From: Pontederia crassipes
Taxonomy: Eukaryota; Streptophyta; Magnoliopsida; Commelinales; Pontederiaceae
Direction of reading: 5' to 3'
Length of the DNA: 64,000 bases
Assembly: GCA_030549335.1 (NCBI GenBank)
Contig: CM060186.1
Span: forward strand, 26,706,689-26,770,688
In this document: positions 1,607-40,688 of the stretch, piece after piece
Layout of the letters: every line of letters starts with the position of its first letter
How positions within the stretch are numbered: the first letter of the stretch is position 1
Program-made: the position numbers and the translations under genes
The notes under the pieces: generated by a model
Told to the model about the DNA's origin: nothing
What the model saw: only the letters and a program-made list of their open reading frames with translations
Database searches by the model: none

Positions 1607-3402
1607 TGATGCATGCAAAATACAACATATTTTAGTTAATTATTTTAATTAAATTTTTTATAATTTGATCATGGCATGCATCATTTTTAGTCACTTTTAA
1701 TCATAATTCCGGATTTATCAATTTTAATTATTAAAATCGCTGAATATTTTAATTGTTGATGGATTAACTATATTTTGATAATTATTTGCAGGAAAATTTG
1801 AATCTCGGCCGAAATTCAAAGAAATTATTTCTTACGGCCGAGATTTGGCTTTACACCCAAGTCGTTACGGTCGAGATTCAAAAGGAGTAACAAGATTTAA
1901 TTCTTTGTTACGGCTAAGATTTGAAGGAGTAAAGATAAATGATTTTATCTTTTGGGCGTAATGGCATGAAGATAAAGATGTTACGGCCGAAATTTGGAGG
2001 GCGTAATGGCATGAAGATGAAGGGTGTAACAATCAATCGAGTTTATCTTTGGGCGTAACAAGATAAGTTCATTCCTTACGGCCGAGATTTGGAGGGGGTA
2101 ATGGCAATTGAAATCATCCGTTTTGGCCGATATATGAAGGTGTAAAGATAAAATTGTTTGGGCGTAAAGATAAAAGGATTTTTATCTTTTGGGAGTAATG
2201 GAAAGGAGTAAAGATAAAATATTTTCCTTACGGCCGAGACTCTAAGGGAGTAAAGATAAGAAAGATTTATCTTTGGGCGTAATGATAAAAGAATTTATCT
2301 TTGGCCGAATTTATCTTATAATTTTAAAGTCAACCGTACGATGTTACGGCCGAGATCAAATTGAAGGCCGTCCGCACCCTATAAATACGTGAAGAATCCA
2401 TCGTTTGAATTCGTGCTCTGAAGTTCAGGTTTCTTCCACGGCGAGTCGTGAGCTCTGCAGGCTACGACCAAGAGGAGAGAGGTGCGACGGCTGGAAGTTG
2501 ATCGCGACCCTGATCAAGTTCGAGAGGCTGCCCGACTGTCTGCCCAATTCAAGAGCTCTACTTCTATTTTGGGTGTAATTCTTTCGATTATTATTGTTAT
2601 TTTGTTATTATCTCTCCAGAATTTCTAGGATGAACTCCATGTTTTTAAGATTATTATTTTAGGAGATTATTAATTGAAGGGAAATGTTTGGATCCTACTT
2701 TATTTGTTTTAATCTTTTCTGATCAATTATTAATTGTGTTTAATGCTTTTATATTAGTTAATTAAATTTCCGAATTAGGCTATACCAATTTGTGGAGTGT
2801 TTAATTTCAGAATTTATTATACTAATTATAATTGATTTTATTTGGAATTAATAATTGACATAAATTTGATAACTAGTGTGTGGAGAATCAAGCTTGTGTG
2901 GTCTATTAATCTATACCAGTTTGTGGAGTGATTAATAGTCTAGAGAATCCAATTTAATGCATCTTAATTTTAATACGATTTTGGGGGTACCAGTCGTGGA
3001 GACTTCAATTCTTATTAAATTAAGATAGTTCTATATGATTAAATTGAGGGATGCCAGTCGTGAAGACCACAAGTTAATCATGGTAGATTACTTTAGGGAG
3101 ACTCTAATCTATCTTTAAAGATTAAATTTATCTTTTATGATTCAAATATTTATCCTGATCTATTTTCATCCTAAGGCCTAACTTCAACACCACTATCTTA
3201 TCTTTATCTTATTTTATTTATTTTATTTTCATAAAACCTCTTTCCAAAAATCCATGTTTTTCCTCTCTTATTAATTTATAAATTCAGATATTGAATCAAT
3301 AATATTCCTCGTGGGTTCGACACTCTTACTCCTTTTTACTATATTACTTGAGCGACTAGTGCACTTGCTAGCAAATTTTATTGTTACAATTACAACGCAT
3401 CA
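1607..3402 (+). repeat. Athila 5' LTR
   Basis: The LTR runs from TGATGC to GCATCA, a perfect 6-bp inverted terminus. It is preceded by a polypurine tract and followed after six bases by a tRNA-Asp primer site. Its first 750 bp hold many TTACGGCCGA-type motifs and GGGCGTAA variants. A TATA box lies at 2380. The 3' end carries the TTCGACACTC...GTGCACTTGC tail familiar from Athila/Tat LTRs. Confidence 0.88.
2380..2387 (+). promoter_or_regulatory. TATA box of the Athila 5' LTR
   Basis: TATAAATA in the context CACCCTATAAATACG, about 770 bp into the LTR. It is a plausible U3/R promoter and is repeated identically at 13095 in the 3' LTR. Confidence 0.6.
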
Positions 3403-3408
3403 AGTTTT

Positions 3409-3425
3409 TGGCGCCGTTGCCGGGG
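3409..3425 (+). other. Primer binding site, tRNA-Asp
   Basis: TGGCGCCGTTGCCGGGG is the exact complement of the 3' end of plant tRNA-Asp(GUC) including its CCA. It lies six bases after the LTR end. Athila-group elements typically use tRNA-Asp. Confidence 0.9.
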
Positions 3426-5012
3426 AATATTTTATTAATTAGTTTCTGATTTTTATGAATTATTAGGAGATGTAAATAAATTGTAAATAATTCTTTGTAA
3501 ATATCTACTATTTTTTTAATTATTTTTATTTTTTGTGTATAAACTAATTTTTTTTTCTTTTGTAGATAAAGGTCGCGACAACTTTAAATTTGTTGACTTT
3601 CGGCTTAAATTCTGACGCCGACTGGATTTTTCAAATTACGTGAACTTATGGTTTTACGACCAAGATCTAGTTTGTCGGCTTTACTGGTTTTACGGCTTCG
3701 TTTCTGACATCTAAACTTTTAATTTTGCTGTCGCAACATTGATTTCAGTGGCTTTATATTTTATATTGTTTGTTACGGGCGAGAATTGATCTCATTTTTT
3801 TTACGGCCGAGCATTTATCTCATTTTTTTACGGCCGAGAATGAATCCTGTTTTTTCGGCCGTAGAACTCTTTTTAATATTGATTTGATCTTTTTCAGCTT
3901 TAATGATTATGATTTTTTTTACGCCCGTAAGCTTTTAACTGACAAACTCTTATCCAATTTTACGGTCGGTATTTCACTTCATCCAGATCGAACTGAATTC
4001 TCTCTCTTGTGATATGATTGATTAAGCTTGCAGACGAGAATTTAATCTCTGATAATCCATTATCTCATGTTTTCTTTTTACGGCCGACACTTATTTCGGC
4101 CGAAACCCTATTTTTCTTTATGGCCTCGTGTTGACTTCATCTCGGCCGATGTGACATCGTCTTAATTGACGATTTAATCTTTTTTACGGCCGAGAATTGA
4201 TCTCATGTTTTCTTTTTACGGCCGTAAAATTTTTGAACATTTGTTTTTACGCCATCTTACGACCCCAATTTATTTGTGATTTTTTCATTCTCGGCCGTAA
4301 CATTATAATAGTTTGAACTTTTGATTTGACTTTGTTTTGGCCGAAGCGATTTAGTTTGTCTCGGCCGTAATGGATCATCCGACATGGATTTTACTCCCTT
4401 TCGGCCGATTTATATGTGTTGATGTTTTACCTCTCGTTCGACTGAACTTTCATTGTTTTACGGCCGATATGAACTATATTCTTTGTCGGCCGTAATGATT
4501 CATTTGGCAACATTTCATTCAATTTTTTTTTTGGCCGAGATAATTCATCGCCATGCTAATTTTTACGGCCTTCACGTTGAATCCTTTTGACACTGTTTCA
4601 ATATTTTTACGGCCGAACGAGCTTCGAATTACTAATCTAATTTCGGCCGTAAATCTATTTCTGTAATTACGGCCGATCAATCTTATTTCTTCTCTGAAAA
4701 TAATTTTTGATTATTTTTTATTATTAATTTTACGGCCGCAAATTAGTTCGGACTTATTTTGTGCGGTTTGCTACATCATCATAAATTCTTTTGGTCGATA
4801 TTAATATTTGGTATTCGTATTGATTTGAAGAATTTCTGAAAAGTTCCTCTAGAAAATTAATTTTAATGACGAATTTTCAAATTCTATCATGCCGAAAGAC
4901 TTTATTTGTTAAAAACTCATTTTTCGTGACCTATTGTCTGAATTTCTTTCTTCTTGTATATATTTTATTTTATTCTTTTATCTTACTGAAAATTGGTTGT
5001 TGCAGGTACTAA
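3426..5012 (+). repeat. Athila leader with dense CGGCCG motif array
   Basis: This is an untranslated leader of about 1.6 kb. From about 3770 to 4745 it contains roughly seventeen exact CGGCCG cores, mostly as TTACGGCCGA or TTTCGGCCGTAA, plus decayed variants such as TTACGCCCGTAA and TTACGGTCGG. Spacing is irregular (about 20-150 bp) with T-rich DNA between. There is no reading frame of note. A 3' splice-site-like stretch (GTTGTTGCAGGTACT) sits just before gag. Confidence 0.75.
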
Positions 5013-6167
5013 TTGAAAATTAAATCACAACCAATCCTGGAATCTTCTGATAAGCGCACTAGGAGTTCAAATCCACTGTTGGAATTTGATCCTGAAATTG
5101 AAAGAACCTATCGTCGATTACGAAGAAATATAAGAAAAATGGCGGAACAAGCACGCGACAATCAGAGACTGGAGCATCAGAATGAACTGGTTCCACCACA
5201 TAATAATCGGCGAGAAGATGAAGTAGAACTTTCTATGAGAGAATATGTCTCAGCCAGATACAGTGATCGAGAATCATGCATCGTGCTGCCTGATATTAAC
5301 GCAAATAATTTTGAGATAAATCCCGCAATCGTGAGGATGATACAAGCATCCCAATTTGGAGGAGGATTTTATGAAGACCCTCACGATCACCTTGACAAAT
5401 TTCTTGCTACTCTGAGCACCTTTAGAAATAATAATGTTTCTTTTGAAGTTATTCGTTTATTATTATTTCATCAATCTTTACGTGACAAAGCTTCCACTTG
5501 GTTTAAAACTTTGCCTGCAGGATCGATTCATTCTTGGTTGGAGCTGGTAAAAAAGTTTGTTGGAAAATATTGTCCACCACAAAAGGCAGGCAAATATCGA
5601 AGAGAGCTAAGGGCATTTGTTCAAGATGATAACGAGACGTTATATGAAGCCTGGGAACGATATAAGGAACTGCTGGCCAGAGTTCCTGATAATAGAATTC
5701 CAAAGTGGCAAGTGATGAAAGATTTCTACCATGGATTACGACCTGCAGATCAAGATAAGCTCGATCAATCAGCAGGAGGGACAGTACTGGGATCTAAACG
5801 TCCTAGTGAGATACAAGATATAATTGAAGTTGTAGCCCTCAAGTCGAGCCAAGAAAGGAGACCATCTCGCCGAACTCATGATGTGCATGCTACAGAAAGT
5901 AAAAATTCTTCTGAAGTAGTGACTCAGCTGGAGTCACTTAATCAAAAATTTGAGCAGATGATGTCATTAATGGTGTGCAACAACTGTGGAGGAGGACATG
6001 CGAGCAATTATTGTCCTCAAGGTAACATTTCTAATCCTGATCATATTGAAAATGCTAACTTTGTCTCCAATCCATTTTTCAGGAATAATGACTATGGTTG
6101 GAGGAACAATCAAAAGTTTCCTTACAGGTCAAATCAAGGGCAAGTTTTTGAGAAATTTCAGAATTAA
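5013..6167 (+). pseudogene. gag: Athila gag polyprotein region (capsid and zinc knuckle)
   Basis: The frame encodes the retrotransposon gag/capsid protein that packages element RNA. The capsid core spans about residues 105-270, with HLDKFLATL, SLRDKASTWFKTLP and YEAWERYKELL blocks typical of Athila gag. A short zinc knuckle CNNCGGGHASNYC (CX2CX3HX4C) follows near residue 325. Family-like sequence extends back to 5013, but the first in-frame ATG is at 5139, so the ancestral start is upstream or lost. The frame ends at a TAA at 6165-6167. Downstream codons continue in the same frame into pol, so the stop most likely replaced a CAA glutamine codon (C to T). Confidence 0.85.
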
Positions 6168-8300
6168 GCTCATCCACAAAATTTTACACTTTTGAGAAAG
6201 CAACAAGAAGCTCCTGTCCAACAATCGACTAATCCTGTGGAAGAGATGATGGCAAGAGTTATTGACACTATGCAAACCATGCAGAAGATAATGGAAACAA
6301 GGGCAAACAATCAAGATGCTACAATCAGGAATTTAGAAATGCAAATAGGGCAAATGGCCAATATGATGGCAGGTCGTGCACCAGGGACTCTTCCAAGCAA
6401 TACAGAGAAAAATTCTAAAGAAGATACCAAAGCTGTGACTCTTAGAAGTGGGAAACAATTGAGAAGTCTGAGATCAGATTCCCCGCCAAGAGTAATTGAT
6501 CACAAAGAAGAAACTGAAGCATCAAAGACACAAGATCAGACTACTGTAGATATCAATCTGAAGAAAAGAGAAATTGACAATTCAAAAAATACCAACATAA
6601 AGGATCTACCCTATCCACAGAAATTTCGCAAAGAACAACTAGATAAGCAATTTTCTCGCTTTCTTGATATTCTGAAGCAATTATCTATTAATATTCCTTT
6701 TCATAAAGCTTTACAGATGATGCCGAGCTATGCTAAATTCATGAAGGATATATTATCCTCAAAAAGAAAGTTTGAAAACACTAGGAGAGTAATGTTGACA
6801 TCGGAGTGTAGTGCCATTTATGATCGAGATATACCTAAAAAAATGAAGGATCCGGGAACCTTCACCATACCTTGCACTATAGGAAAATTCTTTTGTGCAC
6901 AAGCTTTATGTGATCTTGGTGCTAGTATAAGTTTAATGCCTTACTCTATATTTGTGCAGCTAGGTTATGGAGAACTAGAAGAAACAAGCATTACTCTTCA
7001 ATTTGCAGATTCTTCATGCAAAAGACCCCAAGGAATATTAAGAGATGTTTTGGTAAAAGTTGATAAATTTATTTTTCCTGCAGATTTTATTGTTCTGGAT
7101 ATGAAGGCAGATGAAAAAACCCCTATCATCCTCGGGAGACCATTTCTAGCCACAGGAAATGCACTTATAGACGTTCAACAAGGGATGCTCACACTTCGCG
7201 TCAACAACGAAGACATCACTTTCAATATAAAAAATTCTCTCAAACAACATTTTGATCACTCATCCTGTTATGCTATTGATTCTATAGAAGATGACACGAC
7301 TAATGCTTTTGATGATATTGTTGCAGATTTTGTTTCGGATCCATATGCTAAGGAAGCTTTGGAAATGATGGAGGATTCTAGAGAAATTGTGGGAGAGGAT
7401 AATGTGCCAATAACAACAGAGACATTCGAGGACGAAATTGAAAAATTGGATTGTCCTCCAAAATTCGAACTTAAAGAACTTCCATCTCATTTAAGATATG
7501 CTTTTCTTGAAAATAACACTTACCCAGTTATCATATCTGCTGACTTGACAGATGACATGGAGAATAAACTTCTGGAAGTATTAAGGCAACACAAGAAAGC
7601 AATTGCTTGGTCTATTTCAGATATCAGGGGAATCTCTCCTACAATTTGCATGCACAAGATTTTGATGGAGGACAATGCCAAACCAATTGCTCAATATCAA
7701 AGAAGGCTCAACCCAACTTTAAAGGAAGTTGTAAGAAAGGAGGTCATCAAACTCCTTGATGCAGGTATTATATATGCCATTTCTGATAGTTCATGGATAA
7801 GTCCTGTGCAAGTAGTTCCTAAGAAAGGAGGAATCACCGTGGTAAGTAACAAAAATAATGAATTAGTTCCTCAAAGAACAATTACAGGTTGGAGAGTCTG
7901 TATAGACTATAGGAAGCTTAATGATGCTACCCGCAAAGATCATTTTCCATTACCTTTTATTGACCAAATGTTGGAGCGTGTTGCAGGTCATAGCTTTTAT
8001 TGTTTTCTAGATGGCTATTCTGGATACAATCAAATAGCAGTAGCACCTGAGGATCAAGAAAAGTCAACGTTCACATGTCTATATGGGACGTTTGCCTATA
8101 GAAGGATGTCATTTGGTCTATGCAACGCTCCAGCAACATTCCAAAGATGCATGATGTCAATCTTTGCAGATATGAATGAGAAGATACTCGAAGTTTTCAT
8201 GAATGATTTTACACTTTTTGGTAGCTCTTTTAATAACTGTTTGGATAACTTATCTCTAGTTTTGCAGAGATGTGAAGAAACGAATTTGGTCCTTAACTGA
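6168..8300 (+). pseudogene. pol: Athila pol part 1: gag-pol linker, protease and reverse transcriptase palm
   Basis: This is in the same frame as gag. A coiled, charged linker comes first. The aspartic protease follows, with active-site motif ALCDLGAS at about 6903 and ILGRPFLAT at about 7126. Reverse transcriptase starts near 7680 (ISPVQVVPKKGG, WRVCIDYRKLN, DGYSGYNQI, CLYGTFAYRRMSFGLCNAP). The catalytic motif reads FMNDF instead of FMDDF: codon AAT at 8202-8204 where GAT is expected, which removes an essential metal-binding aspartate. The frame ends at a TGA at 8298-8300, where the family has tryptophan before EKCHFM, so TGG became TGA. Both lesions are G to A changes. The protein is non-functional. 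Confidence 0.87.
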
Positions 8301-9172
8301 GAGAAATGTCACTTCATGGTTAAGGAGGGTATAGTTCTTGGCCACAAAATTTCAGAAAAAGGAATTGAAGTGGATAAGACCAAGATAGATGTTATTGCAA
8401 ATCTGCCTCCTCCAACCAATGTGAAGGGCATTCGAAGCTTCCTTGGGCACGCAGGATTTTATCGCCGTTTTATCAAAGATTTTTCAAAAATGGCTAAACC
8501 CTTAACTAATCTTCTTGCTAAGGACACAAAATTTGATTTTAATTCAGATTGTCTTGCTGCCTTTAATTTATTAAAGGAAATGCTAATTTCTGCACCTATT
8601 GTTGTTGCACCAGACTGGTCTCTACCATTCGAGATGATGTGTGACGCGAGTGATGGTGCTATTGGAGCTGTGTTGGGGCAAAGAAAGGATAAAACATTTC
8701 ATGTCATATATTATGCAAGCCGAACATTGAATGCTGCCCAACTAAATTATGCAACAACAGAGAAGGAGTTTCTTGCTATTATTTTTGCTTTTGACAAGTT
8801 TAGATCATATCTAATTTGTTCAAAAATTATTGTATACACAGATCATGCAGCCATCAAGCACTTGATGAGCAAACAAGATGCCAAACCTAGACTGATCCGA
8901 TGGATACTACTTTTGCAAGAGTTCGATGTGAAAGTAAAAGACAAAAAAGGGATTGAGAACTTATTAGCTGATCACCTATCTCGGTTGGAGCCATCTCCAA
9001 GAGAAGTCACAGACATACTTGAAGAATTCCCAGACGAGAAACTTTTTTCTATCTCTACAATTTTTCAAATTTCTGACACTACACCATGGTTCGCTGATCT
9101 TGCTAATTATCTTGCAGGACATTACATTCCAAAGGGCATGACCGCTCATCAAAAAAGGAAATTCTTATCTGT
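8301..9172 (+). pseudogene. pol: Athila pol part 2: reverse transcriptase thumb and RNase H
   Basis: The frame continues after the TGA. The thumb region contains [11 protein letters not shown] and [19 protein letters not shown]. RNase H follows, with [14 protein letters not shown] (first catalytic Asp), [23 protein letters not shown] (catalytic Glu), [10 protein letters not shown] (catalytic Asp) and ADHLSRLE. RNase H residues look intact. Near 9170-9172 the family reading frame jumps: up to KFLS the frame is as upstream, while the conserved YHWEDPYLF block that follows is in another frame. One deleted base explains this. The unshifted frame then runs to a stop at 9228-9230. Confidence 0.85.
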
Positions 9173-10369
9173 GTTAAGAATTATCACTGGGAAGATCCTT
9201 ACCTTTTTCGATTATGTGCAGATCAAATAGTTCGAAGATGTGTTCACGAAGATGAGATTGATAATATCCTAAGTCATTGCCACGATGGACAAGCTGGAGG
9301 TCACTTTGGACCCAATCGAACAGCAGCTAAAGTACTTGAATGTGGACTATATTGGCCAACCATTTACAGAGATGCAAGAAACTACTATAAGTATTGTGAC
9401 AAATGTCAAAGGACAGGTAATATTTCTCGTCGAGATGAAATGCCTCTCACAAATATTTTACAGTGCGATATTTTTTATGTTTGGGGCATTGACTTTATGG
9501 GACCATTCCCTAAATCCTTTAACAACCAATACATCTTAGTGGCGGTTGATTATGTTTCCAAATGGGTAGAAGCTGTAGCCACACCAACAAATGAGGCCAA
9601 GGTAGTTGCCAACTTTTTAAGAAAAAATATTTTTACTCGATTTGGAACACCTAGGACTATCATAAGTGACAATGGAACACATTTCTGCAATAAAATAATG
9701 TCAACTCTTCTTAATAGATTTGGAGTCAAACATTTTTTGAGTACACCATATCATGCCCAATCTTGTGGACAAGTGGAAATTTCAAATAGAGAGATAAAAA
9801 GGATTCTAAAAAAAACTATAAATTCATCTAGGAAAGACTGGTCTTTGAAATTAGATGATGCACTCTGGGCATATAGGACTGCTTTTAAAACACCCATAGG
9901 TACTTCTCCTTATAAATTAGTTTTTGGAAAAGCATGTCACCTTCCTGTAGAACTAGAACACAGGGCTTATTGGGCAATAAAATTTTTAAATATGAATCTA
10001 AAATCATCACAATCTGAAAGGTTATTACAATTAAATGAGCTTGATGAATTTAGACAATATGCATACGAAAATAGTAAGCTATATAAAGAACGCACAAAAA
10101 ATTTACATGACCTGCATATCAAACATAAAGAATTTTTACCTGGTCAACAAGTACTTCTTTATAATAGCAAACTCAGATTATTTCCTGGAAAACTTAAATC
10201 AAGATGGACCGGACCTTATGTTATAATTAATTGTTCACCCTATGGAACTTTTGAGATTGAATCATTAGACAAAAAACAAAGACTCAAAGTGAATGGACAT
10301 AGATTGAAACTTTATCATGGCGGCACTTATTATCATAACCTTTCTATGATCACTCTTTATGATGTGTGA
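9173..10369 (+). pseudogene. pol: Athila pol part 3: integrase
   Basis: The frame is open from the frameshift to 10369. The HHCC zinc-binding module ([14 protein letters not shown] ... [12 protein letters not shown]) lies at about 9270-9415. The DDE core has Asp in WGIDFMGPF, Asp in IISDNGTHF and Glu in [14 protein letters not shown]. The C-terminal GPY/F-like motif is SRWTGPYVI near residue 265 of the last open segment. All three catalytic acids are present, so this domain is the best preserved part. It cannot be made as part of the polyprotein because of the upstream stops and frameshift. Confidence 0.88.
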
Positions 10370-11400
10370 AATTTTCATCAGAACTAAGTCAAGCTGACGA
10401 CTATAAATCAGAACTATTTTTATCCTTTTTATTTATTTCAGATTTTGTGGTAATAGTTTTATTTTGTTGAGTCATCTGCGGAAGGAGAGACCTCGGACAA
10501 TCGGCCAAGCTCTTACGACATAACCCTTCACGTTGGAAAGGTAAGTTTACGCCCGAAGTTTCATCTATAAATTTTGACCCCTTCCACATCTTTGCAGATC
10601 TAAATCTTCGGCCGAGCTTTACTTCTTACGGCCGAGGTTCTTCATCGACTTACGGACGAACGAAAAGCAATTACGGCCGAGCCTCTGTTCCTTACAGCCG
10701 AAGTCTCAACGCCAACCGCCGATCCTTACGCCCAAAGTTCCATGCCACCTGTACTCCTTACGGCCGAAGTTTCACCATTACGCCCTGTGCGTTACGGCCA
10801 AGCTTCCACGCCGATTTCGTTTTACGGCCGAAGAACCGACACCGTCACCGCCGCTTCCTTACGCCCAAAGTGCCACCACCTATTCGTTACGGCCGAACCA
10901 ACTCCTTACGGCCGAAGTTTCACCATTACGATCAGTTTCTTACGGCCGAGATTGCACGGCTGAGATCTTCATCAACAAAATTTTGCGGCCAAGCTTTTAC
11001 GACCGAGATCTCCTCTCACCGACACCATTTGCGGCCGACACCTTCATCATGCCGAGCATCTCTCCACCGACAATAAATCCGGTTGTATCTTTTCTCTTTT
11101 CTTTATTTTTATTTTTATTTCTTTAGCTTTTTTATATTATCTTTTCACTTTCCCTTACTGGCTTAACACTGAGGACAGTGTCTAGTTCAAGCTTGGGGGA
11201 GTTTGCATTTCACGCATTGCATGTTTCTTTCTGTTTATTTGCTTATGTTTGCATCTATTTATAAAAAAAATCCAAAAAAATTGAAAATTTTGAAAATTTT
11301 CTAAATAATACCATTGCATGCATTTATTTTTGCTACCATCTAACAAACTCTTGTCTTATTGTTTTAATTATCTTTTTAGTAGAAGTTCAAAGACACGTCG
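10370..11400 (+). repeat. Athila 3' untranslated region with second CGGCCG motif array
   Basis: No coding sequence is supported. From about 10,560 to 11,060 the motif TTACGGCCGA and variants (TTACGCCCAAAG, TTACGACCGAG) recur about every 20-40 bp, often followed by AGTTTC or GATCTTC. Short frames across it are low-complexity products of the repeats. Confidence 0.7.
11189..11201 (+). other. Upstream polypurine-tract-like motif
   Basis: AAGCTTGGGGGAG followed by TTTG, preceded by GAGGACAGTG. It repeats the arrangement of the true polypurine tract at 12307 (GAGGACAAGC ... AAGCTTGGGGGAGTT) but lies 1.1 kb before the LTR. It may be a second plus-strand primer or a relic. Confidence 0.55.
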
Positions 11401-12321: not shown

Positions 12322-14117
12322 TGATGCATGCAAAATACAACATATTTTAGTTAATTATTTTAATTAAATTTTCTATAATTTGATCATGGCATGCATCATT
12401 TTTAGTCACTTTTAATCATAATTCCGGATTTATCAATTTTAATTATTAAAATCGCTGAATATTTTAATTGTGGATGGATTAACTATATTTTGATAATTAT
12501 TTGCAGGAAAATTCGAATCTCGGCCGAAATTCAAAGAAATTATTTCTTACGGCCGAGATTTGGCTTTACACCCAAGTCGTTATGGCCGACATTCAAAAGG
12601 AGTAACAAGATTTAATTCTTTGTTACGGCTAAGATTTGAAGGAGTAAATATAAATGATTTTATCTTTTGGGCGTAATGGCATGAAGATAAAAATGTTACG
12701 GCCGAAATTTGGAGGGCGTAATGGCATGAAGATGAAGGGTGTAACAATCAATCGAGTTTATCTTTGGGCGTAACAAGATAAGTTCATTCCTTACGGCCGA
12801 GATTTGGAGGGGGTAATGGCAATTGAAATCATCCGTTTTGGCCGATATATGAAGGTGTAAAGATAAAATTGTTTGGGCGTAAAGATAAAAAGATTTTTAT
12901 CTTTTGGGAGTAATGGAAAGGAGTAAAGATAAAATATTTTCCTTACGGCCGAGACTCTAAGGGAGTAAAGATAAGAAAGATTTATCTTTGGGCGTAATGA
13001 TAAAAGAATTTATCTTTGGCCGAGTTTATCTTATAATTTTAAAGTCAACCGTACGATGTTACGGCCGAGATCAAATTGAAGGCCGTCCGCACCCTATAAA
13101 TACGTGAAGAATCCATCGTTTGAATTCGTGCTCTGAAGTTCAGGTTTCTTCCACGGCGAGTCGTGAGCTCTGCAGGCTACGACCAAGAGGAGAGAGGTGC
13201 GACGGCTGGAAGTTGATCGCGACCCTGATCAAGTTCGAGAGGCTGCCCGACTGTCTGCCCAATTCAAGAGCTCTACTTCTATTTTGGGTGTAATTCTTTC
13301 GATTATTATTGTTATTTTGTTATTATCTCTCCAGAATTTCTAGGATGAACTCCATGTTTTTAAGATTATTATTTTAGGAGATTATTAATTGAAGGGAAAT
13401 GTTTGGATCCTACTTTATTTGTTTTAATCTTTTCTGATCAATTATTAATTGTGTTTAATGCTTTTATATTAGTTAATTAAATTTCCGAATTAGGCTATAC
13501 CAGTTTGTGGAGTGTTTAATTTTAGAATTTATTATACTAATTATAATTGATTTTATTTGGAATTAATAATTGACATAAATTTGATAACTAGTGTGTGGAG
13601 AATCAAGTTTGTGTGGTCTATTAATCTATACCAGTTTGTGGAGTGATTAATAGTCTAGAGAATCCAATTTAATGCATCTTAATTTTAATACGATTTTGGG
13701 GGTACCAGTCGTGGAGACTTCAATTCTTATTAAATTAAGATAGTTCTATATGATTAAATTGAGGGATGCCAGTCGTGGAGACCACAAGTTAATCATGGTA
13801 GATTACTTTAGGGAGACTCTAATCTATCTTTAAAGATTAAATTTATCTTTTATGATTCAAATATTTATCCTGATCTATTTTCATCCTAAGGCCTAACTTC
13901 AACACCACTATCTTATCTTTATCTTATTTTATTTATTTTATTTTCATAAAACCTCTTTCCAAAAATCCATATTTTTCCTCTCTTATTAATTTATAAATTC
14001 AGATATTGAATCAATAATATTCCTCGTGGGTTCGACACTCTTACTCCTTTTTACTATATTACTTGAGCGACTAGTGCACTTGCTAGCAAATTTTATTGTT
14101 ACAATTACAACGCATCA
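12322..14117 (+). repeat. Athila 3' LTR
   Basis: 1,796 bp with termini TGATGC/GCATCA, the same length as the 5' LTR. I saw about fifteen substitutions and no large indel between them. The flank after 14117 is copia gag sequence read on the minus strand. Confidence 0.88.
13095..13102 (+). promoter_or_regulatory. TATA box of the Athila 3' LTR
   Basis: TATAAATA in the same context as in the 5' LTR. It could drive read-out towards 14.1 kb and beyond. Confidence 0.5.
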
Positions 14118-14257: not shown

Positions 14258-14260
14258 GTT

Positions 14261-16884: not shown

Positions 16885-17900
16885 TGTAATACCCAAAATT
16901 TAAAATAAGGGCATTACTAACTTCTAACAAAGTAAATATTCTCTTTTCCTTCCTTTCATTATTTTACCTCATACAATGGTCACCATGCTAGCGATTGAGG
17001 AAAGGGGAGAAGGAGAAGAGTATGCACTAAATAAAGAAGATGAAGGAAGAGTTTGCACTAGATAAAAAAAGAAGATGAAGGAAAACAAGAATAATAAACA
17101 CTTAAAAAGGTGCATAAAGTAGATACAAACTTTCTCCCTTTTAATATTTTCTTGCATGGGACTGAGAATAATGAGATTGCCCATGTTCTCATTAATAATT
17201 GATTGAGGGTGCATTGATAGATATTATAGATTCATGATTATTCAATCATATTTGTGCATCAATCCCTATAAGTTGTATATGATTGGTACATGATGAAACC
17301 TCTGTTTCTTTTATATATATTTGAATTAGGGCATTTGATTCAGATTAAATGCTATTCTTTTAACATTCAATCATGTACTGCACACATCTTGAAATTTGGG
17401 CAGAATACTCAAGAAAATTGCATGAAAAATTGTACCAATACCTACTTCACGGGTGTGAATCCTAGTTTACAGCCATGAGCAAGTAGGAAACAAATCAATC
17501 ATAATGCTAGAGAGCAGTCACAAATAGTGAAACAAAATTTTATGACCCTAGAATAGATTTTCACGACTGTGAAGTGGACCACTCATCGACGTGGCCCCTT
17601 GTGTCATGGCTGCAAGCTAATGGTTAAATATTAACTAGAACAAAAGATCTCATTGTGAAGTGATATTTCACAGCCTTGAAGAGGGAGATCCACAGTCTGA
17701 CCACAAAGCTACGACCTTGAGTGAATGGACTTAAGAACATGGGGTGCCAGGCTCTCATTCATGACCATCGAGTATATATTCATGATCGTGAGCGAAGCAT
17801 GTCAAGAGTGTGAACATTTGTTCATGAATATGAACACTCAGGGCCTATTGATAGGAAGTTAAACGATAAAATTGTGACTTGTATCCACTGGTTAGTTTGT
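16885..17900 (+). repeat. Possible LTR fragment with TTCACGACYRTGAAG motif array
   Basis: It begins TGTAATACCC after a purine-rich run (AAGAGAAGAAGGA), as chromovirus-type 3' LTRs do. Between 17,445 and 17,845 about ten imperfect palindromes occur, such as TTCACGACTGTGAAG, TTCACAGCCTTGAAG, TTCATGATCGTGAG and TTCATGAATATGAAC. No right-hand LTR end or partner LTR was found, so the call is tentative. Confidence 0.35.
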
Positions 17901-27452: not shown

Positions 27453-29652
27453 TGTAACGCCCCCAAATCGACCCCCGTCATGTGACGAAGATTAACCTGA
27501 AGGCGTTACGACATGCTATGACTTGACCATAATATTGACTATATTTCAGTCAAGAATCGAGACACGTCAGCAAAAAAATAATAAAATAAAAGAAGATAAC
27601 ATAAATATGCAGAAGTCTAAAAAGTGGCTACATCATTCCTAAAGAATATAATAAGGTTTTACATCATGAAGCTATAATGCGAAAGAAAAAAGGAAACTAA
27701 TAAGTCTTGTGGTTCATGTATTGTCTTATCGCCAGAGCTTCGTCACCACACACATATTCCACCTCGTCACTAACCTGGTCCTGTGGAAATGAGACACAGG
27801 AGAGGAGGTCCTTCCGTAAGCTTTACAACTAGTGGAAAACCACATGATATACAATGCATAACATGAATAAAATAATCAGAGACAAATAATAATGCTTGAC
27901 TTGAACTTGAAAGGATAACATGGCAGCATCATAAATCATGATAAGGATAAGATCAGAGGATATCATGAATTAGGAGAGTAACACGATGATTAATAAACAT
28001 AAACTTATAGCATACTTGAAAAACATGACAGTAGCTTGACTTGACCTGAACATGCTTCTTGATCTTGGTTATTAATTAGTAATCAGTGTGACTTTATGTG
28101 CCTTTAGTTATTTGGGTATGCCCAGCAAATGACATGGCCTTGTGCGGGTCAATGGGTGATCAAACCATGACCAAAGGAGCAACCCTTATCTTGATGCACT
28201 TGGCTTGGACTGGTAACCCATTGTTAATCTTTCATCTGATCTTATTAATCGCTTTGAATAACTTGTAGCTCTTTGTTCTTTGTTCAATGAATACGATGAG
28301 ATCAATAAAAAAATAAATCAATGAGAGAATAGATCTTAGAAATCGGTGAGGGATCTTTGTAGGGTCAGGAAAATAGGATCAATTGTACATAGGCAACATT
28401 CAAATTAAAAAGATAATTAATTAATAAATCTAATAAAAATGTTTCTAGAAATCGGTACGAGGTAAATCAGGAAAAAGAGTTCATATTGAAAACATAAGGC
28501 AATCGATAACGTTCATATCAAAATAATGGAAGACTGATGAATAGAAAATCAAGGACTGTTTTGTGGCCCGGCACGGCCATGACAACATAGTGGCATAGCC
28601 GTGCCGATTTGGATGACGGGTTCTACATAGGAGGTGGCACGAGCGTACCATAAGAGAGCACAATCGTGATAGAGGGTGAGGGTGGTCGACCGATTCAAAG
28701 TAGTCTGTCGACCGGTTTTGTCCTGGTTGTGCGGCTGGGTACTTGGTCATGGCACGGCTGTGCCGAAAGGATGGCACGGCCATGACCGGTCGGGCACTCG
28801 GTCGATCGGCATCGGCTGACCTTTTATTTAGGTTCCATCGAGTCATGACACGGGCGTGCCGACAGGGTGGCATAGTCGTGACGGTAGTGGTACGGGCGTG
28901 CCAAGAGATGGCACGGTCGTGACGGCGACGGATTCCAGCCGATTTCAATACGAAAATTGCATGGATCTTTAACATACATTCATCCTAACCTAATTTCTAC
29001 ATCCTACCAATCAATAAGACAGAAATAGAACAAACAGAATTAATTCAAACAATAAGCAAATCAGGAATCAAACAATTCAAATAAGAATTCAATAATCAAA
29101 CAAGAACCCTAGGAAAACTTGATCCTTTTCATTTCGTAATCAATTAGGGCATGGATTAGAACAATTCAAAGGTCATGCAAGGTGATTTCGATTCACCCAC
29201 CTTGGTTCGTGATTGATCTGTTCCTAGGTTCGTCGGAAAATCGCTCAACAGTAACCCCCCTGTTTCCTACATTTTCTGCCCTTGCTCTTCCTCTCTACCT
29301 GAAATCCAACGAAGATGACTGTAGGATGGGCGTGTTGATTAGGTGATTGCAGTAAGGGGAGGGAAGAAGGGATCGACCTCCGGCGGCCTGCTCTTGGACG
29401 GCAGCAACGTGGCCACAGGGATCAAACAGGGGAGGATTTTTCCTTTCGTGTGTTCAGCCGGCCCTGATTTCATAAAGGGTTTTAATTAATCCTTCTCTTC
29501 TAATTCCACTTTAATATGATTAAGGAGATAAAAGTTGATCCATCTAATCCAACTCTAATTGGGCTTTAATTTATATTTCTTTCGGGATCAGCCCGGCCGT
29601 TCCAAGTTGAACTCAAATCTGATTTTTTTTTATCCTTTCTGATTGTCTGTCA
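27453..29652 (-). repeat. Chromovirus-like solo LTR, minus strand, inserted in a MULE terminus
   Basis: On the minus strand it ends GTCGATTTGGGGGCGTTACA, like the LTR end at 35091 (CTCGGGGTGTTACA). Its architecture follows the 32.8-kb element: a transcript-start-like region with TTTCAGGTAGAGAGG, then a palindromic motif array, then a GGGTTGCTCC...CCCATTGACCCGCAC...GGCCATG block and a segment with CTGTGTCTCATTTCCACAGG. No primer site or internal region is attached, so it is probably a solo LTR. The exact right edge is uncertain. Confidence 0.55.
28560..28935 (-). repeat. GGCACGGCCGTGCC palindromic motif array
   Basis: About a dozen imperfect palindromes occur in 375 bp, such as GGCACGGCCATGAC, GGCACGGCTGTGCCG, ACACGGGCGTGCCG, GGTACGGGCGTGCCA and GGCACGGTCGTGAC. 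They are separated by about 15-45 bp of GC-richer sequence. The 164-codon frame crossing this array is a by-product. Confidence 0.7.
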
Positions 29653-32846: not shown

Positions 32847-33125
32847 TCTAACAACCCTAATTTTTTAGTGTTATAAAAATAATATTTTATTATTTATTTT
32901 GAGAAAATGACCATTAATATTATTACAATAAATAATTCCGAAAATAAAGGAAAATAAGGGGAGGAGTTTAATTAAGGATAAAAATGTATTATGGGATATT
33001 TATTTAAATTCGGAATTATTTAATTATTAAAATAAATCAAAATTGTTAAAAGAGATTAATTAAAAGATTAAATTTGATTAGGATTGTAAGTTATAGATGA
33101 ATTGGAGATAAAGATTTAAGAGCCC

Positions 33126-33133
33126 TATAAATA
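33126..33133 (+). promoter_or_regulatory. TATA box of the chromovirus-like LTR
   Basis: TATAAATA in GAGCCCTATAAATAAATCC, about 280 bp into the LTR. It is repeated in the 3' LTR at 38,762. Confidence 0.55.
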
Positions 33134-33289
33134 AATCCTTAGAGTTGATCGCCAAAAGAGTTTTCTTCTCTATGAGTTCTTGGTGTCCGACGGCAGAGGC
33201 ATGGCAAGGCATGATTCAACGTCGAACGGCTACGAGGTACGTAGGGGGGATTCCGTTTTCTATTGTGTCGTAATATGTTACGGTGCAAT

Positions 33290-33880
33290 CTAGTTTGGGA
33301 TTAGAATTATTATGGCCGCAATATTTGTTTGCTATTGCATCGTAAGATTTTACAACGTAATTTAATTTTAAATTAGAAGTATTACGGCCGTAAATTTGTT
33401 TGGCCGTAATTTTCTGTTCCGGCCGTCAAGAGAGAGAAGAGTAGAGTTTTACGGCCGAGAAAAGGGTGGAGAGAGAATTAGAAAAAAAAGGGTGTTACGG
33501 TCGAAGAGTTAGGGTTTTCGTCCGTAATGGAATAGAGAGGTAGAGAGAGAAAGAGGAATGTCGAGAAAAGGGAAGATGAAAAAAAAAGGTGTTTACGGCC
33601 GAAGAGTTAGGGTTTTCGGCCGTAATGGAATAGAGAGATGTAGAGAGAGAAAGGTTAAAAAAATAATAATAATAAGAAGTATGGAGTTTACGGCCATAAC
33701 GGATAGGGGGTAAAAGTTTATGGCCGTAACGGATAGGGGGTAAAAGTTTATGGCCGTAATGGAATAGGGGGTAAACATTTGGAGAGAGAATTTACGGCCG
33801 TAAAAATCAGAGAAGATGGAGAGAGAAAAAAATAGAGAGAGATTTATAAAAAAAAGAAATTGATGTTACGGCCGTAATGA
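33290..33880 (+). repeat. TTACGGCCGTAA motif array in the chromovirus-like 5' LTR
   Basis: More than a dozen copies of TTACGGCCGTAA, TTTCGGCCGTAATGG, TTTACGGCCGAAGAG and decayed forms lie in GAGAGA-rich DNA directly downstream of the TATA box. The copy in the 3' LTR spans about 38,920-39,510. Confidence 0.75.
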
Positions 33881-35094
33881 ACATGGAGTACTCACCGAGA
33901 GTTATTATTTATTTTTGAGTAAATTTTGATTACTGATTATTATTGTTGTTATTAATTAATTTGATGCATTAATTATATTGTTGGTGATTGATTTGTGTAT
34001 ATAATGATGAACTTTGATTTTGATTGTATTGTTGATCTACTTAGTTTTGAGTTCAGAATTTGTCTAACAAAATTGATAATTTATTAAAGATAGACATTTT
34101 AGGTAAACAAGATAAAAGCCGAAAACTACTGGGCCCATGTTCACTGATTGCCACTAAGCCGGGAGCAATTGAATTGAATGGGGCAGATAGTGTAAAAACT
34201 ATGGTTGTCCTGTGTATGGCCACTCGTCCCCCACCATACACGAACCCATTGAATCGTATCGGGCTTGCCGTGGCACTGATCCCCCACTGGCCTGCATGAA
34301 AGTGGCATGGTGTCCCTTAATTGACTGAGCGCTCCTCATTGAATTGGATAACTCCGAACATTGAAAATCGAATCGAATTGAATTGAATTGAAATTGGAAT
34401 TTAAGTGAATGGAATTAAATCATGGTCATTTGGATATATTGGCATGGAGTTGGCAATTATTATTGCTCTATTGAATTGAATTGTTATTGGTCAATGACCA
34501 TTGATTATTGAATTGAAAATTGTTAATTGAATATTGATCTATTCATCAGGTAATTGATAAGTATTAATTGGAACAATTGTTATTGATTTACATTGGTCTG
34601 TTGACCATAGCCTGATACATTGTTCATATTGATAAATGATTAATTGATTATTGTATTGACTGCTCAATCGACTCATTATTGATTTTATCTTATTTTCGAT
34701 TGAGCATATTGATTGTCTTTTAGACCCTACGTACTGAGTATTTTTATACTCATGGATATTTCCCTGTATCTGGATCCGTGCAGGTAAGAGAGCTATAGAT
34801 GATGGTCCTGCAGATGGCTACGCTCAGTGACAGACAGATGTTGCACATGCATTAGATCTAGTGATTTAGTTTTATTATTTCCGCACTTATTAGAATTGTA
34901 AACTCATGGATGTTTTAGCATTTCGATTATTATGGATTATTAGTTATTATTTTTAAAAAGTCTTTCGCATTTATGTTTTATATTCCGCACTTTATAGATT
35001 TTATTCCGCAAAAATATTTTATAGAGAATTGAGTAGCGCCTCTGGGACGACTCTAAGCACGTGAAAGTCACGTGGGTCTCGGGGTGTTACAGAA

Positions 35095-35105
35095 GGTATC
35101 AGAGC
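35095..35105 (+). other. Primer binding site, tRNA-Met
   Basis: GGTATCAGAGC matches 11 of the 12 bases of the initiator tRNA-Met complement. It lies three bases after the LTR end. Confidence 0.75.
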
Positions 35106-35280: not shown

Positions 35281-36305
35281 ATGCCTTTCAAGTTGATGAC
35301 CTCTCATCAACTTTATCGTGGACTGGGAAATAGATATCGACGAACCAATTCCCAAAATGCATAGGATGATGGTCAAGCGATCCAAAGCCCACGAGTAAAT
35401 AATGAATGGGCCGATACACATCAGGAGGAACATATGAATCTCATTCAACATATAGAGAATATAGCAATACCTATGGTGATGACGTTTCTCCTCACGATGA
35501 TTGAAAAGAGATGGTTAAAAGTTTTCTCAGATTACAGCCTCCCCAATTTGACGGGAAGGGCGACTTCGAGAAAGCCTATAGGTGGCTGGAAGAAATTGAT
35601 CAGACTTTGATAAAAATAGACTACAAGACTATATGTGCTACGAGGCGTTTGACATGTGACGCTAGGCATTGGTGGAAAGCAACAAAGGCTAGCACTTTCT
35701 CCGGAAAGGACCTGATTCCTTGGAGAAAGTTTAAAAAGATATTCAAGGATCGCTATTTACCTGTTTCTCGAAGAGCGAGAAAACGGAAGGAATATCGAGA
35801 TCTACAATAGGATACCATGACAGTCGAGGACTACACGATCGAATTCTTAAAGTTGGAGAAGTATGGTACTCGACGTCAATCAGAGAGAAATCGCGTTAAG
35901 CAATGGGTGGACGGTCTCAAGCCAAACCTCCGAGGACGGGTAAAATGTTGTAACTATCAGACCCTTCAAGTTGCGAAAGAGTTTGCTACCATGCTTGAAA
36001 ATGACGACATAACAAACGCAACTCAACCGAATCAAGAGGATATAGATAATGATCAGAATCATATTTGGAGTAAAGATAGAAGACATCAAAGAAGAGAGAA
36101 GCGGCATCAAGAAAACTATAATCGAGGAAGGTCATATCCAACATGGAATGATCCTCCACCACATAGAGAATCATGTAACTACTGCCACAAAATGCATCTC
36201 GGTGAATGTTATTGGGCGACGGGTGCATGCCTAAATTGTGGCAAGATGAGTCACTTCGCAAGAGATTGCGATGAATCAAAATGGGTCGAACCTCTACGAC
36301 AATAA
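35281..36305 (+). pseudogene. gag: Chromovirus-like gag remnant
   Basis: A probable original start ATG is at 35281. That frame meets a TAG and must shift by about 35,500 to reach the capsid region (LQPPQFDGKGDFEKAYRWLE). From 35511 a second frame carries ARHWWKATK, YLPVSRRARKRKEY, a TAG at 35808-35810 (where glutamine is expected), then MTVEDYTIEFLKLEKY, KQWVDGLKPNLR and zinc-binding motifs CNYCHKMHLGEC and CLNCGKMSHFARDC (CX2CX4HX4C). The frame ends at 36305. Domain order and motifs fit chromovirus gag. Two stops and a frameshift make it non-functional. Confidence 0.8.
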
Positions 36306-36699: not shown

Positions 36700-38450
36700 C
36701 TACATTGGTTAACCCAAGATCGATGATATTCCAATATATTCGTCAAGCCTAGAGGAACATGCAGAACACTTGCAGATTGCACTGCAAACATTAAGAAAAA
36801 TAAGTATGCGCCAAAGTATCGAAATACAAATTTTGGCAGAATGAGATAATGTTCTCCAGAAATATCGCATAGATGGAATATCAAAAGATGAATGCTATAA
36901 TCAAATGGATTCAACCAATGGACGTGTTAAAGAGGAAAAAAAAACTTCCTTAGACTTGCAAGATATTTTTGAATAGTCACATTAGACTTGCAGAATATTA
37001 GCGGAGAGTCGCACCAGATTACTACACGATAGTATTGCCATGGACGAACCTCACCAAGAAGGACAAAAAGATATAAAAAATTTGAATGGCTCAGGAAAGG
37101 CTAAAAAAATAGGTTTTAAGAATTGGAGAAGAAATTGACAACGATGTCCTTCTTTTGAAAAGACCTTCAGGCCGAGGTTATGTCGCCCACAACCATGCAT
37201 ACAACCCTCGCATGGCATGAGTCTTGATGCTATATAGGAAGAAGATAGTTGTCAACACATTAAGACGATTAGATATCGAATTAGCAATTGTGGTCTTCAC
37301 CCCAAGAATCGGTGACACAATGTGTAGGGTGAAGAGTTTGAATTCTCCACGAACCACCAAAGTTGAGGTACACTTCCGAACATTTGTCGAAAAAAAAGGG
37401 ATCAAATTATTGAAAGATTACGAGTTTGTCAAAGCAAACTCAATTGAGCATATTTTAAACAGAAAGGTCACTTGCTCATTTGACGGTGAGCCGACAGAAT
37501 ATGAGCATTGAGCAGTTGTATCATCCAAGTCAGTCTAGTGACCAACAGTGATGGTGCAAGGATAGCAACACATCTTACATGCAATCGAAATTACTATGAA
37601 AGGTCAAAAAATGAAAGTGGAGCATCAGAGGTCATATGGTGTACTACAAGAGCTTGAAAATCCTCAATAGCATTAAAAAAAAAGATAACGATGGATGTTA
37701 TTAGAGGGCTTGACATGGACACAATGTGATATGAGTAATAGAGGATCGATATATTAAAATAGCCAATGTCATACCCATTAGAGAAAGGTTAGTCCATCGA
37801 AAGCCTCATGGTCATTTTTTTTAAGGAGGTTATCCGACTACATGGAGTGTTGATATTCATCACGTCGGATAAGAATCTACAATGCATAGACCAATTCTGA
37901 TGGAGCATCTGTAGAGCAATTGGGATGTGGTTGAACTTCTAGATCACCTTCCATTCACAGATGAATGAGTAGTCTGAATGGACAATTCAGACCTTAAAAA
38001 TATATATATATGTTCTGGACTTGCATTAGACCGGAGTGATAGTTGGAACAATCAGCTCCCACTAGCGAAGTTAGTATGTGGCAACAGTCGCCAACCTGAC
38101 ATAAGCATGCCACTTCATAGTCATGTATGGAAGGCATTATTGCTCACCTATCAGCTGGAGCGAGGTTGATGGACAGTTCGTTGATGACAATTCTCGTCAT
38201 GAGAATAACTGACGCACATTCAAAAGGATGTTGACAAATTTGCTTCATCAAGAAATGTGGAAGGTAGTCCACATGAGACAAAAATAGTAGGCTGACATAG
38301 TGAGATTACAAGAATTGAATTAAAATGGAGATCTAACATACGTAGGACACATTATGAAGATGAAGATGACATTTTAAAACGAGAAGTTGAAATCAGAAAA
38401 GATTTTTCAAATTTGTTAGGTAGATGATGTAGTTTCGTTTATGCAAATTC
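36700..38450 (+). pseudogene. pol: Chromovirus-like pol remnants (RT, RNase H, integrase)
   Basis: Short family-like stretches lie in changing frames. Reverse transcriptase: DDIPIYSSSLEEHAEHLQIA near 36,722-36,785 (the YVDDILIYS region), then KYKFWQNEIMF. RNase H: PSGRGYVAHNHA near 37,170, DIELAIVVF near 37,275, LLKDYEFVKANSIEHILNRK near 37,410-37,470. Integrase: KVEHQRSYGVLQELENP near 37,615, ITMDVIRGL, VIEDRYIKIANVIPIR near 37,735, EVIRLHGV near 37,825, and GLALDRSDSWNNQLPLAKLV near 38,015-38,080. Protease and the first half of RT are not recognisable in 36,306-36,700, probably deleted. Multiple stops and frameshifts indicate old decay. Confidence 0.72.
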
Positions 38451-38481
38451 GAGGACGAATTTATTTTTAAGGAGGTTATGA

Positions 38482-40688
38482 TGTAACGACCCTAATTTTT
38501 TAGAGTTAGAAAAATAATATTTTATTATTTATTTTGAGAAAAATGACCATTAATATTATTACAATAAATAATTCCGAAAATAAAGAAAAATAAGGGGAGG
38601 AGTTTAATTAAGGATAAAAATGTATTATGGGATATTTATTTAAATTCGGAATTATTTAATTATTAAAATAAATCAAAATTGTTAAAAGAGATTAATTAAA
38701 AGATTAAATTTGATTAGGATTGTAAGTTATAGATGAATTGGAGATAAAGATTTAAGAGCCCTATAAATAAATCCTTAGAGTCGATCGTCAAAAGAGTTTT
38801 CTTCTCTATGAGTTCTTGGTGTCCGACAGCAGAGGCATGGCAAGGCATGATTCAACGTCGAACGGCTACGAGGTACGTAGGGGGATTCCATTTTCTATTG
38901 TGTCGTAATATGTTACGGTGCAATCTAGTTTGGGATTAGAATTATTACGGCCGCAATATTTGTTTGCTATTGCATCGTAAGGTTTTACAACGCAATTTAA
39001 TTTTAAATTAGAAGTATTACGGCCGTAAATTTGTTTGGCCGTAATTTTCTATTCCGGCCATCAAGAGAGAGAAGAGTAGAGTTTTACGACCGAGAAAAGG
39101 GTGGAGAGAGAATTAGAAAAAAAAGGGTGTTACGGTCGAAGAGTTAGGGTTTTCGGCCGTAATGGAATAGAGAGGTAGAGAGAGAAAGAGGAATGTCGAG
39201 AAAAGGGAAGATGAAAAAAAAGGTGTTTACGACCGAAGAGTTAGGGTTTTCGGCCGTAATGGAATAGAGAGATGTAGAGAGAGAAAGGTTAAAAAAATAA
39301 TAATAAGTATGGAGTTTACGGCCGTAACGGATAGGGTGTAAAAGTTTATGGCCGTAACGGATAGGGGGTAAAAGTTTATGGCCGTAATGGAATAGGGGGT
39401 AAAAATTTGGAGAGAGAATTTACGGCCGTAAAAATCAGAGAAGATGGAGAGAGAAAAAAATAGAGAGAGATTTATAAAAAAGAAAAAAGAAATTGATGTT
39501 ACGATCATAATGAACATGGAGTACTCACCGAGAGTTATTATTTATTTTTGAGTAAATTTTGATTACTGATTATTATTGTTGTTATTAATTAATTTGATGC
39601 ATTAATTATATTGTTGGTGATTGATCTGTGTATATTATGATGAACTTTGATTTTGATTGTATTGTTGTTCTACTTAGTTTTGAGTTCAGAATTTGTCTAA
39701 CAAAATTGATAATTTATTAAAGATAGATATTTTAGGTAAACAAGATAAAAGCCAAAAGCTACTGGGCCCATGTTCACTGATTGCCACTAAGCCGGGACCA
39801 ATTGAATTGAATTGAATTGATTGTCCTGTGTATGGCACTAATCCCCCACTGAATTGTATCGGGCTTGCCGTGGCACTAATCCCCCACTGGCCCGCATGAA
39901 AGTGGCATGGTGTCCCTTAATTGACTGAGCGCTCCTCATTGAATTGGATAACTCCGAACATTGAAAATCGAATCGAATTGAATTGAATTGAAATTGAAAT
40001 TTAAGTGAATGGAATTAAATCATGGTCATTTGGATATATTGGCATGGAGTTGGCAATTATTATTGCTCTATTGAATTGAATTGTTATTGGTCAATGACCA
40101 TTGATTATTGAATTGAAAATTGTTAATTGAATATTCATCTATTCATCAGGCAATTGATAAGTATTAATTGGAACAATTGTTATTGATTTACATTGGTCTG
40201 TTGACCATAGCCTGATACATTGTTCATATTGATAAATGGTTAATTGATTATTGTATTGACTGCTCAATCGACTCATTATTGATTTTATCTTATTTTTTAT
40301 TGAGCATATTGATTGTCTTTTAGACCCTACGTACTGAGTATTTTTATACTCATGGATATTTCCCTGTACCTGGATCCGTGCAGGTGAGAGAGCTATAGAT
40401 GATGGTCCTGCAGATGGCTACGCTCAGTGACAGACAGATGTTGCACATGCATTAGATCTAGTGATTTAGTTTTATTATTTTCGCACTTATTATAATTGTA
40501 AACTCATGGATGTTTTAGCATTTCGATTATTATGGATTATTAGTTATTATTTTTTAAAAGTCTTCCGCATTTATGTTTTATATTCTGCACTTTATAGATT
40601 TTATTCTGCAAAAATATTTTATAGAAAATTGAGTAGCGCCTCTGGGACGACTCTGAGCACGTGAAAGTCACGTGGGTCTTGCGTTACA
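38482..40688 (+). repeat. Chromovirus-like 3' LTR
   Basis: It begins TGTAACGACCC after AAGGAGGTTATGA (purine-rich priming tract) and ends TTGCGTTACA, followed by the GGTTT duplication. It carries the same TATA box and CGGCCG array as the 5' LTR. Confidence 0.83.

Follow-up and report, generated by a model that had tools for sequence, protein, structure and literature searches.

Two-turn-spaced arrays of CGGCCG-centred palindromes in Ty3/gypsy retrotransposons of Pontederia crassipes, candidate binding sites for a host dimeric protein

Arrays of short palindromes in plant retrotransposons have been described for Ty1/copia Sireviruses, 13 of which carry so-called RM boxes, with a CGG-CCG core in 12 of the 13 (Bousios et al. 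2010, PMC2829016). These boxes lie upstream of the TATA box, and in elements with an env gene mostly also ahead of env; they define CpG islands, they are termed Sirevirus-specific, and the accessible text reports that no common binding factor was found (PMC2829016). Later work ties the Sirevirus palindromes to small RNAs (PMC10760457, PMC5311732). A different kind of array is formed by the VANC-target motif YAGTATTAY of VANDAL DNA transposons, which is non-palindromic and occurs in a single orientation (PMC5735166). Plant long terminal repeat (LTR) retrotransposons also show a weak preference for palindromes at their integration sites, a link that likewise joins such elements with palindromes, but at targets and not as arrays within the elements (PMC6911290). 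Here we analyzed palindrome arrays in a stretch of 64,000 nucleotides from Pontederia crassipes (CM060186.1, positions 26,706,689 to 26,770,688; hereafter the window), which lies on contig C4 of a genome of 1.13 Gb in 43 contigs. The arrays are found chiefly in an Athila-like Ty3/gypsy element (1607-14117, plus strand) and a Tekay-like element (32847-40690, plus strand). An initial annotation of the window had presented CGGCCG-centred arrays as a phenomenon with no known explanation, while noting similar GC palindromes in other plant gypsy LTRs; given the CGG-CCG arrays already published upstream of the TATA box in Sireviruses (PMC2829016), the phenomenon is not entirely new.

To quantify the core, CGGCCG counts were compared with dinucleotide shuffles of each block (100 per block, or 30 where the block exceeded 10 kb). 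The core was enriched about 45- to 110-fold in the LTRs, leader and post-integrase block of the Athila-like element and in both Tekay-like LTRs. There were six copies in the Athila-like 5′ LTR (shuffle mean 0.12), six in its 3′ LTR (0.13), 17 in the leader (0.16) and nine in the block 5013-11126 (0.12), where the sites lie at 10.5-11.04 kb, past the integrase open reading frame (ORF); the Tekay-like LTRs held seven and six (0.11 each). No CGGCCG was present in the Tekay-like interior or in the stretch 11127-12321. Dinucleotide content, named beforehand as the explanation that could overturn the observation, is thus far exceeded. Palindromes of any sequence showed no clear excess within the Athila-like blocks (6 versus 3.3 for 10-mers in the 5′ LTR), and palindromic 12-mers with one mismatch were raised about twofold in the Tekay-like LTRs (29 versus 14.3, shuffle maximum 28; 33 versus 16, maximum 25). 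The excess thus concerns mainly this core motif and not a bias towards symmetry. When 8-mers recurring within 700 bp with unlike flanks were scanned, TTACGGCC, GGCCGTAA and ACGGCCGA in the window and ACGGCCGT in the sampled locus L015 were among the strongest, together with other recurrent words.

The initial annotation had placed such arrays in four LTR blocks. This held for the Athila-like and Tekay-like elements. The minus-strand LTR at 27.5-29.6 kb holds one exact CGGCCG and 19 copies with at most one mismatch (shuffle mean 3.4, maximum 9), and its GGCACGGCCGTGCC-type array with 21/22-bp pairs (28574..28925, minus strand) is mostly decayed. The LTR-like block at 16.9-17.9 kb had been credited with dozens of sites and the shared core; it contains no CGGCCG, neither exact nor with one mismatch, and just five to six loose sites. 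Since three of the four blocks show chromovirus-like LTR ends by reading, the core is shared between two Ty3/gypsy lineages and not between four unrelated families.

The shared unit consists of the half-sites ACG and CGT separated by two bases (ACG-NN-CGT), extended to CACG/CGTG in one family group and to TTACG/CGTAA or CGA in another. CACG-Nk-CGTG was counted in 200 kb sampled as 20 stretches of 10 kb at round positions on nine contigs; it occurred 24 times at k = 2 and 0-2 times at every other value of k between 0 and 15, mainly in the loci L012 and L015. Genome-wide, the k = 2 word CACGNNCGTG was found 28,594 times against 7,324 for the reversed word, and the k = 3 word CACGNNNCGTG 8,551 times against 6,361; the much larger excess at k = 2 indicates that the two-base inner gap is specific. 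The reversed-word control swaps CpG for GpC and is generous if anything. TTACGGCCGTAA was found 6690 times genome-wide against 8 for the reversed word, and GGCACGGCCGTGCC 301 times against 0. In the sample, ACGGCCGT occurred 15 times (0.53 expected) and ranked fourth of 256 palindromic 8-mers by ratio, behind CGCGCGCG, GCGCGCGC and CGCCGGCG. Fourteen of these 15 copies lie in L012 and L015, which are Athila-like elements as judged by a sequence resembling a polypurine tract (PPT), and whose LTRs carry CACGGCCGTG arrays directly ahead of a CCTATAAAA box. The sample counts of CGCGCGCG and GCGCGCGC are explained at least largely by a satellite in L020 (1-10000, G000:C5:5000001-5010000), a 172-bp tandem repeat that fills the locus and is possibly centromeric; its units carry GCGCGCGAAATTTC, which accounts for the high frequency of GAAATTTC in the sample and, at least to a large extent, for that of CGCGCGCG.

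The half-sites are the best-kept parts of the sites. We read 79 sites from ten arrays in the LTR sense, five of the arrays belonging to one LTR family. At core positions 1, 2, 5 and 6, 35 of 38 changes in the CACG arrays were C>T or G>A, the kinds that methylated CpG should give, and the CGACYR cores listed in the initial annotation likewise fit CGGCCG with such changes. Position 3 behaved differently, with G>C in 18 of 23 changes, and position 4 showed C>T in 9 of 10. A looser set of 101 sites from eight arrays, which includes the TTACGG form, gave many transversions at positions 3 (12/22) and 4 (9/16) and few at positions 1, 2 and 5 (2/16, 3/9 and 0/9). Position 6 had 9 transversions in 17 changes, eight of the 17 being G>T, so that the last letter appears less fixed in the TTACGG form.

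Close neighbours in the CACG group are mostly centred 21 or 22 bp apart, with varied spacers between them and further distances near 42 bp. A distance of 21/22 bp corresponds to two turns of B-DNA. Genome-wide, CACG-form pairs with free core letters numbered 3,117 against 3 in the control at gaps of 11-12 (21/22 bp apart), and 106 against 17 at gaps of 13-22 (23-32 bp apart), a class that spans five times as many gap values. Exact CACGGCCGTG pairs at gaps of 4-34 numbered 708 against 0. Among the 50 distinct pairs listed of these 708, 21 had a gap of 11, 14 a gap of 12 and 15 a gap of 26-34, and none had a gap of 4-10 or 13-25; the five pairs at gaps of 32 and 34 have, by reading, a decayed site between their two members. 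The 35 short-gap pairs form 15 spacer clusters, of which one many-paired LTR family can yield several. For contig C1, consecutive distances among the first 100 CACGNNCGTG sites listed were 20-22 bp in 20 cases, 40-44 bp in seven and 11 bp in one, and never 12-19 or 23-39 bp. Likewise, the 79 sites, half of whose ten arrays are related, gave 33 distances of 20-22 bp, none below 20 and none of 23-33. Irregular spacing, as stated in the initial annotation, correctly describes the Athila-like element with its TTACGG form but not the CACG form.

The position of the arrays relative to the promoter was determined for four Athila-like LTRs and the Tekay-like LTR. In all four TATA-bearing Athila-like LTRs no more than about 100 bp lie between the end of the array and the TATA box downstream of it. 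In the window, the TTACGGCCGAGA-type array (1806..2353, plus strand) lies just before the TATA-box-like TATAAATA (2380..2387), and the arrangement in L012, L015 and L029 is similar. In the Tekay-like LTR, unlike the Athila-like LTRs, the array (33313..33877, plus strand; TTACGGCCGTAA-type, with two inverted pairs at 21 bp and 30-bp tandem units) lies downstream of the TATA-box-like TATAAATA (33126..33133). The TATA-proximal site pair was aligned for the three related loci L012, L015 and L029. All 20 palindrome columns were invariant, compared to 5 of 12 spacer columns, in which an indel sets the gap to 11 or 12; invariant columns made up 63 of the 85 that separate the pair from the TATA box, all 9 of CCTATAAAA and, upstream, 6 of 28.

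On balance, we lean towards the view that the arrays are clusters of cis-regulatory binding sites in LTR retrotransposons, which a host dimeric DNA-binding protein would bind cooperatively. Such a protein is favoured because a two-turn distance with free spacers is what side-by-side DNA-bound dimers would produce. A sequence-specific host protein would bind each ACG-NN-CGT site as a dimer, two dimers would occupy one face of the helix in a cooperative manner, and the paired dimers would drive transcription of the element, probably when the CpGs of the sites are unmethylated. Different lineages may have gained or kept sites through dependence on the same or related factors, while the site flanks would drift with the element family. 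Of the common factors proposed in the initial annotation, a DNA-binding factor seems the best reading; an RNA-level structure is possible in four of the five arrays tested and was not seen in the fifth. If a host factor does read the sites, this would show by what means a single plant activates several lineages of retrotransposons, and it could link the Sirevirus boxes, so far unexplained, with those of gypsy elements. With a strict site grammar in thousands of copies and no known reader found, a direct experiment is possible.

Several observations weigh against this view. The TTACGG form is more loosely spaced: among the 50 pairs listed of 4504, many of which share similar spacers, 12 were 19-21 bp apart, 31 were 29-32 bp apart and seven fell elsewhere, the preference for 29-32 bp arising partly via tandem units. 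The Athila-like element of the window falls outside the 21-bp rule (mean cosine of -0.07 in its leader). A general helical phasing beyond the 19-23 bp class was not supported (p = 0.21), in a test that omitted two weak sites of L015 and one of the minus-strand array, by which three pairs of short distances became longer ones; a period of 7 fits the spacings as well as one of 10.5. The genome-wide free-core pair counts cover gaps of 11-22. The sites are also not spared after insertion, as judged from two-LTR comparisons of four elements. CpG positions changed faster than others in seven of eight comparisons, inside and outside the motifs, the exception being the motif positions of the Athila-like LTRs, which are 99% alike, and in three of the four LTR pairs non-CpG positions changed more often within motifs than outside. 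Selection can therefore be argued from the comparison between families only, and, since the sites decay after insertion, it would act, if at all, in the replicating lineage and not in dead copies. Lastly, four of five arrays tested in the sense orientation fold better than all 200 shuffles (z = -4.05, -7.89, -6.90 and -3.47).

This folding is the main argument for the alternative that the arrays serve as hairpins in the retrotransposon RNA, either selected for packaging or stability, or tolerated and feeding small-RNA silencing as proposed for Sireviruses. An excess of small RNAs at Sirevirus palindrome clusters (PMC10760457) points the same way, as does, weakly, the pairing of the flanking bases -1/+1 in 37 of 79 sites against 31.6 expected (Fisher p = 0.08, sense reading). 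We nevertheless regard this as rather unlikely: the site-dense post-integrase array of the Athila-like element does not surpass its shuffles in folding (z = -0.76; 40 of 200 are equally good), core letters within pairs were complementary in 10 of 50 cases compared to a permutation mean of 10.9, Rfam gave no match within window positions 1-42000, and a distance of 21/22 bp is not obviously demanded by RNA hairpins. Similarly, there is little to suggest that the arrays dock an element-linked protein through which the element stays unmethylated, as with VANC on VANDAL transposons. Every half-site contains a CpG, and the layout of VANC targets, with dense dispersed motifs in mainly non-coding sequence, subfamily variants and tandem duplication (PMC5735166), is alike; no extra protein family was found in those ORFs that were scanned, which were only some, and a core common to two lineages fits a host factor better. 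Least probable of all is a signal of the CpG-island or methylation type that has no specific reader, with CpG clusters merely marking the promoter. The two CpGs per site and the CpG islands defined by RM boxes (PMC2829016) would agree with it, but fixed outer letters, a two-base inner gap and a 21/22-bp distance are needless for CpG density.

A further alternative is shared ancestry, with one array recombined between families or inherited from a common ancestor, in which case the sharing would say nothing about a factor. With the motifs masked, 9-mers were shared at all in 15 of 36 array comparisons, and only the leader and the 16.9-17.9 kb block shared more (12) than the largest of 40 shuffles (9). 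Two arrays of the same Athila-like element, in its LTR and past its integrase, have four 9-mers in common, such as GGGCGTAAT (shuffle maximum 5), and a homologous site pair close to the TATA box recurs among related Athila-like loci. The single comparison above the shuffles involves the block without the core, and within the window BLAST joined none of the Athila-like arrays to a Tekay-like one. Given the little 9-mer sharing and the lack of a BLAST match, a recent transfer of arrays between families appears unlikely, whereas an ancient descent is conceivable; proof that all arrays descend from one sequence by recombination, the other outcome named beforehand, did not emerge. Shared ancestry as a whole strikes us as improbable, and even if the arrays were ancestral, motifs and spacing would have outlasted their surroundings.

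The hosts of the arrays were assigned as follows. The Athila-like element has LTRs that are 99% alike (5′ LTR 1607..3402, 3′ LTR 12322..14117, plus strand), the 3′ LTR carrying the same array at about 12521-13068. A primer-binding-site sequence, read at 3409..3425, is followed by the leader array (3776..4740, both site orientations), by ORF pieces of gag, reverse transcriptase, RNase H and integrase (5013..10369; Pfam PF03732, PF00078, PF17917, PF00665, PF17921) and by the post-integrase array of TTACGGCCGAAG-type sites in a single orientation (10540..11040), all on the plus strand. The order of reverse transcriptase, RNase H and integrase is of gypsy type, and together with the primer-binding site and the long 3′ internal region it agrees with Athila elements; we take the primer-binding site and PPT to be of Athila type. 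Upstream of the element, 684-1606 repeats 11400-12321 at about 99%, including its own PPT ahead of the 5′ LTR, and 573-684 matches 14261-14371 at 93%, so that the region 573-1606 represents a tandem or recombined Athila-like arrangement. The Tekay-like element has LTRs that are 95% alike (5′ LTR 32847..35091, its ends read in the sequence; 3′ LTR 38482..40690 with an array at about 38940-39510; plus strand) around an interior of only 3.4 kb, with a primer-binding-site sequence GGTATCAGAGC at 35095..35105, presumably of initiator-Met type, and gag remnants at 35505..36305 (PF03732, 9.3e-06; CCHC below cut-off). Its LTR ends of the TGTAAC/GTTACA kind, its primer-binding site and its gag agree with Tekay/Del elements, although the Tekay/Del type of ends, primer-binding site and PPT flank is our assumption; no reverse transcriptase, integrase or chromodomain was found in the five ORFs scanned in the interior. 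The minus-strand LTR (27453..29617) is probably solo or truncated. It has relatives 71-82% alike in L025, L026, L027 and L030, and is assigned to the chromovirus type because the two LTRs of L030 enclose a Tf2-1-like SH3 integrase end. For the block 16888..17890 (plus strand), the LTR start looks similar by eye, and nothing further backs a chromovirus-type assignment.

Other repeats were seen in passing. In L028 (991-1043), three palindromes stand in an exact 21-bp tandem repeat within a Tekay-type LTR, which matches other array LTRs by one short weak hit only; this may represent a birth stage of the spacing. L008 (2820-3960) holds a further palindrome array of words like CGACGG..CCGTCG with a different inner gap, which we take to resemble CACTA subterminal repeats, and in L011 GGTCGGGT/ACCCGACC words recur in both orientations at about 9100-9250 and 9430-9500. 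The window also contains, at 43786-44478, an ORF with a zf-RVT domain (zinc-binding domain of reverse transcriptases, 1.2e-11), presumably of LINE type.

Repeated protein-binding boxes beside a promoter are familiar from the LTR activator boxes of Tnt1 and Tto1 and from the 21-bp repeats (GC boxes) of SV40, which have known factors, few copies and no core in common with the present arrays. CACGG-CCGTG words similar to those described here occur in gypsy LTRs of cotton and citrus. Among the papers listed in literature searches by motif sequence nothing was relevant; searches by topic led to the Sirevirus boxes, but none of the papers listed describes arrays of this kind for gypsy elements, which is not proof since subscription papers lay largely outside the searches. 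More speculatively, Ty3/gypsy and Ty1/copia elements might have converged on inverted CG-rich half-site pairs two turns apart, through one host DNA-binding protein or a small family acting as a paired dimer, as a general gateway to the transcription of plant retrotransposons; this wider idea we hold only tentatively.

VANC targets resemble the present arrays in that a short motif is dense and dispersed, lies mainly in non-coding sequence, grows by tandem duplication and varies between subfamilies, but they belong to DNA transposons that encode their own VANC protein (PMC5735166). The likeness to RM boxes goes further. Both comprise many CGG-CCG palindromes in a CpG-rich setting with element-specific outer letters, and both lie a short way upstream of the TATA box with another cluster in the 3′ part of the internal region, before env in Sireviruses (PMC2829016); CGGTCGACCG is itself a palindrome word of the Sirevirus type. 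Here the core is present in at least eight copies per element, with 6-17 exact CGGCCG per enriched block and 38 over the LTRs, leader and post-integrase array of the Athila-like element, and the array stands shortly upstream of the TATA box in the Athila-like LTRs, not in the Tekay-like LTR. The hosts differ, being Athila-like and chromovirus elements of Ty3/gypsy and not Ty1/copia Sireviruses, as the gypsy gene order and the Tf2-1-like integrase end of L030 indicate. In the Sirevirus consensus sequences bases stand between CGG and CCG, whereas here the two abut and the third position is variable; the CACG-form sites are mostly 21/22 bp apart, and the accessible text on RM boxes gives no spacing rule (PMC2829016). 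We conclude that the arrays are the same kind of thing as RM boxes in other lineages, with Ty3/gypsy hosts, a gapless core and two-turn spacing as the new features.

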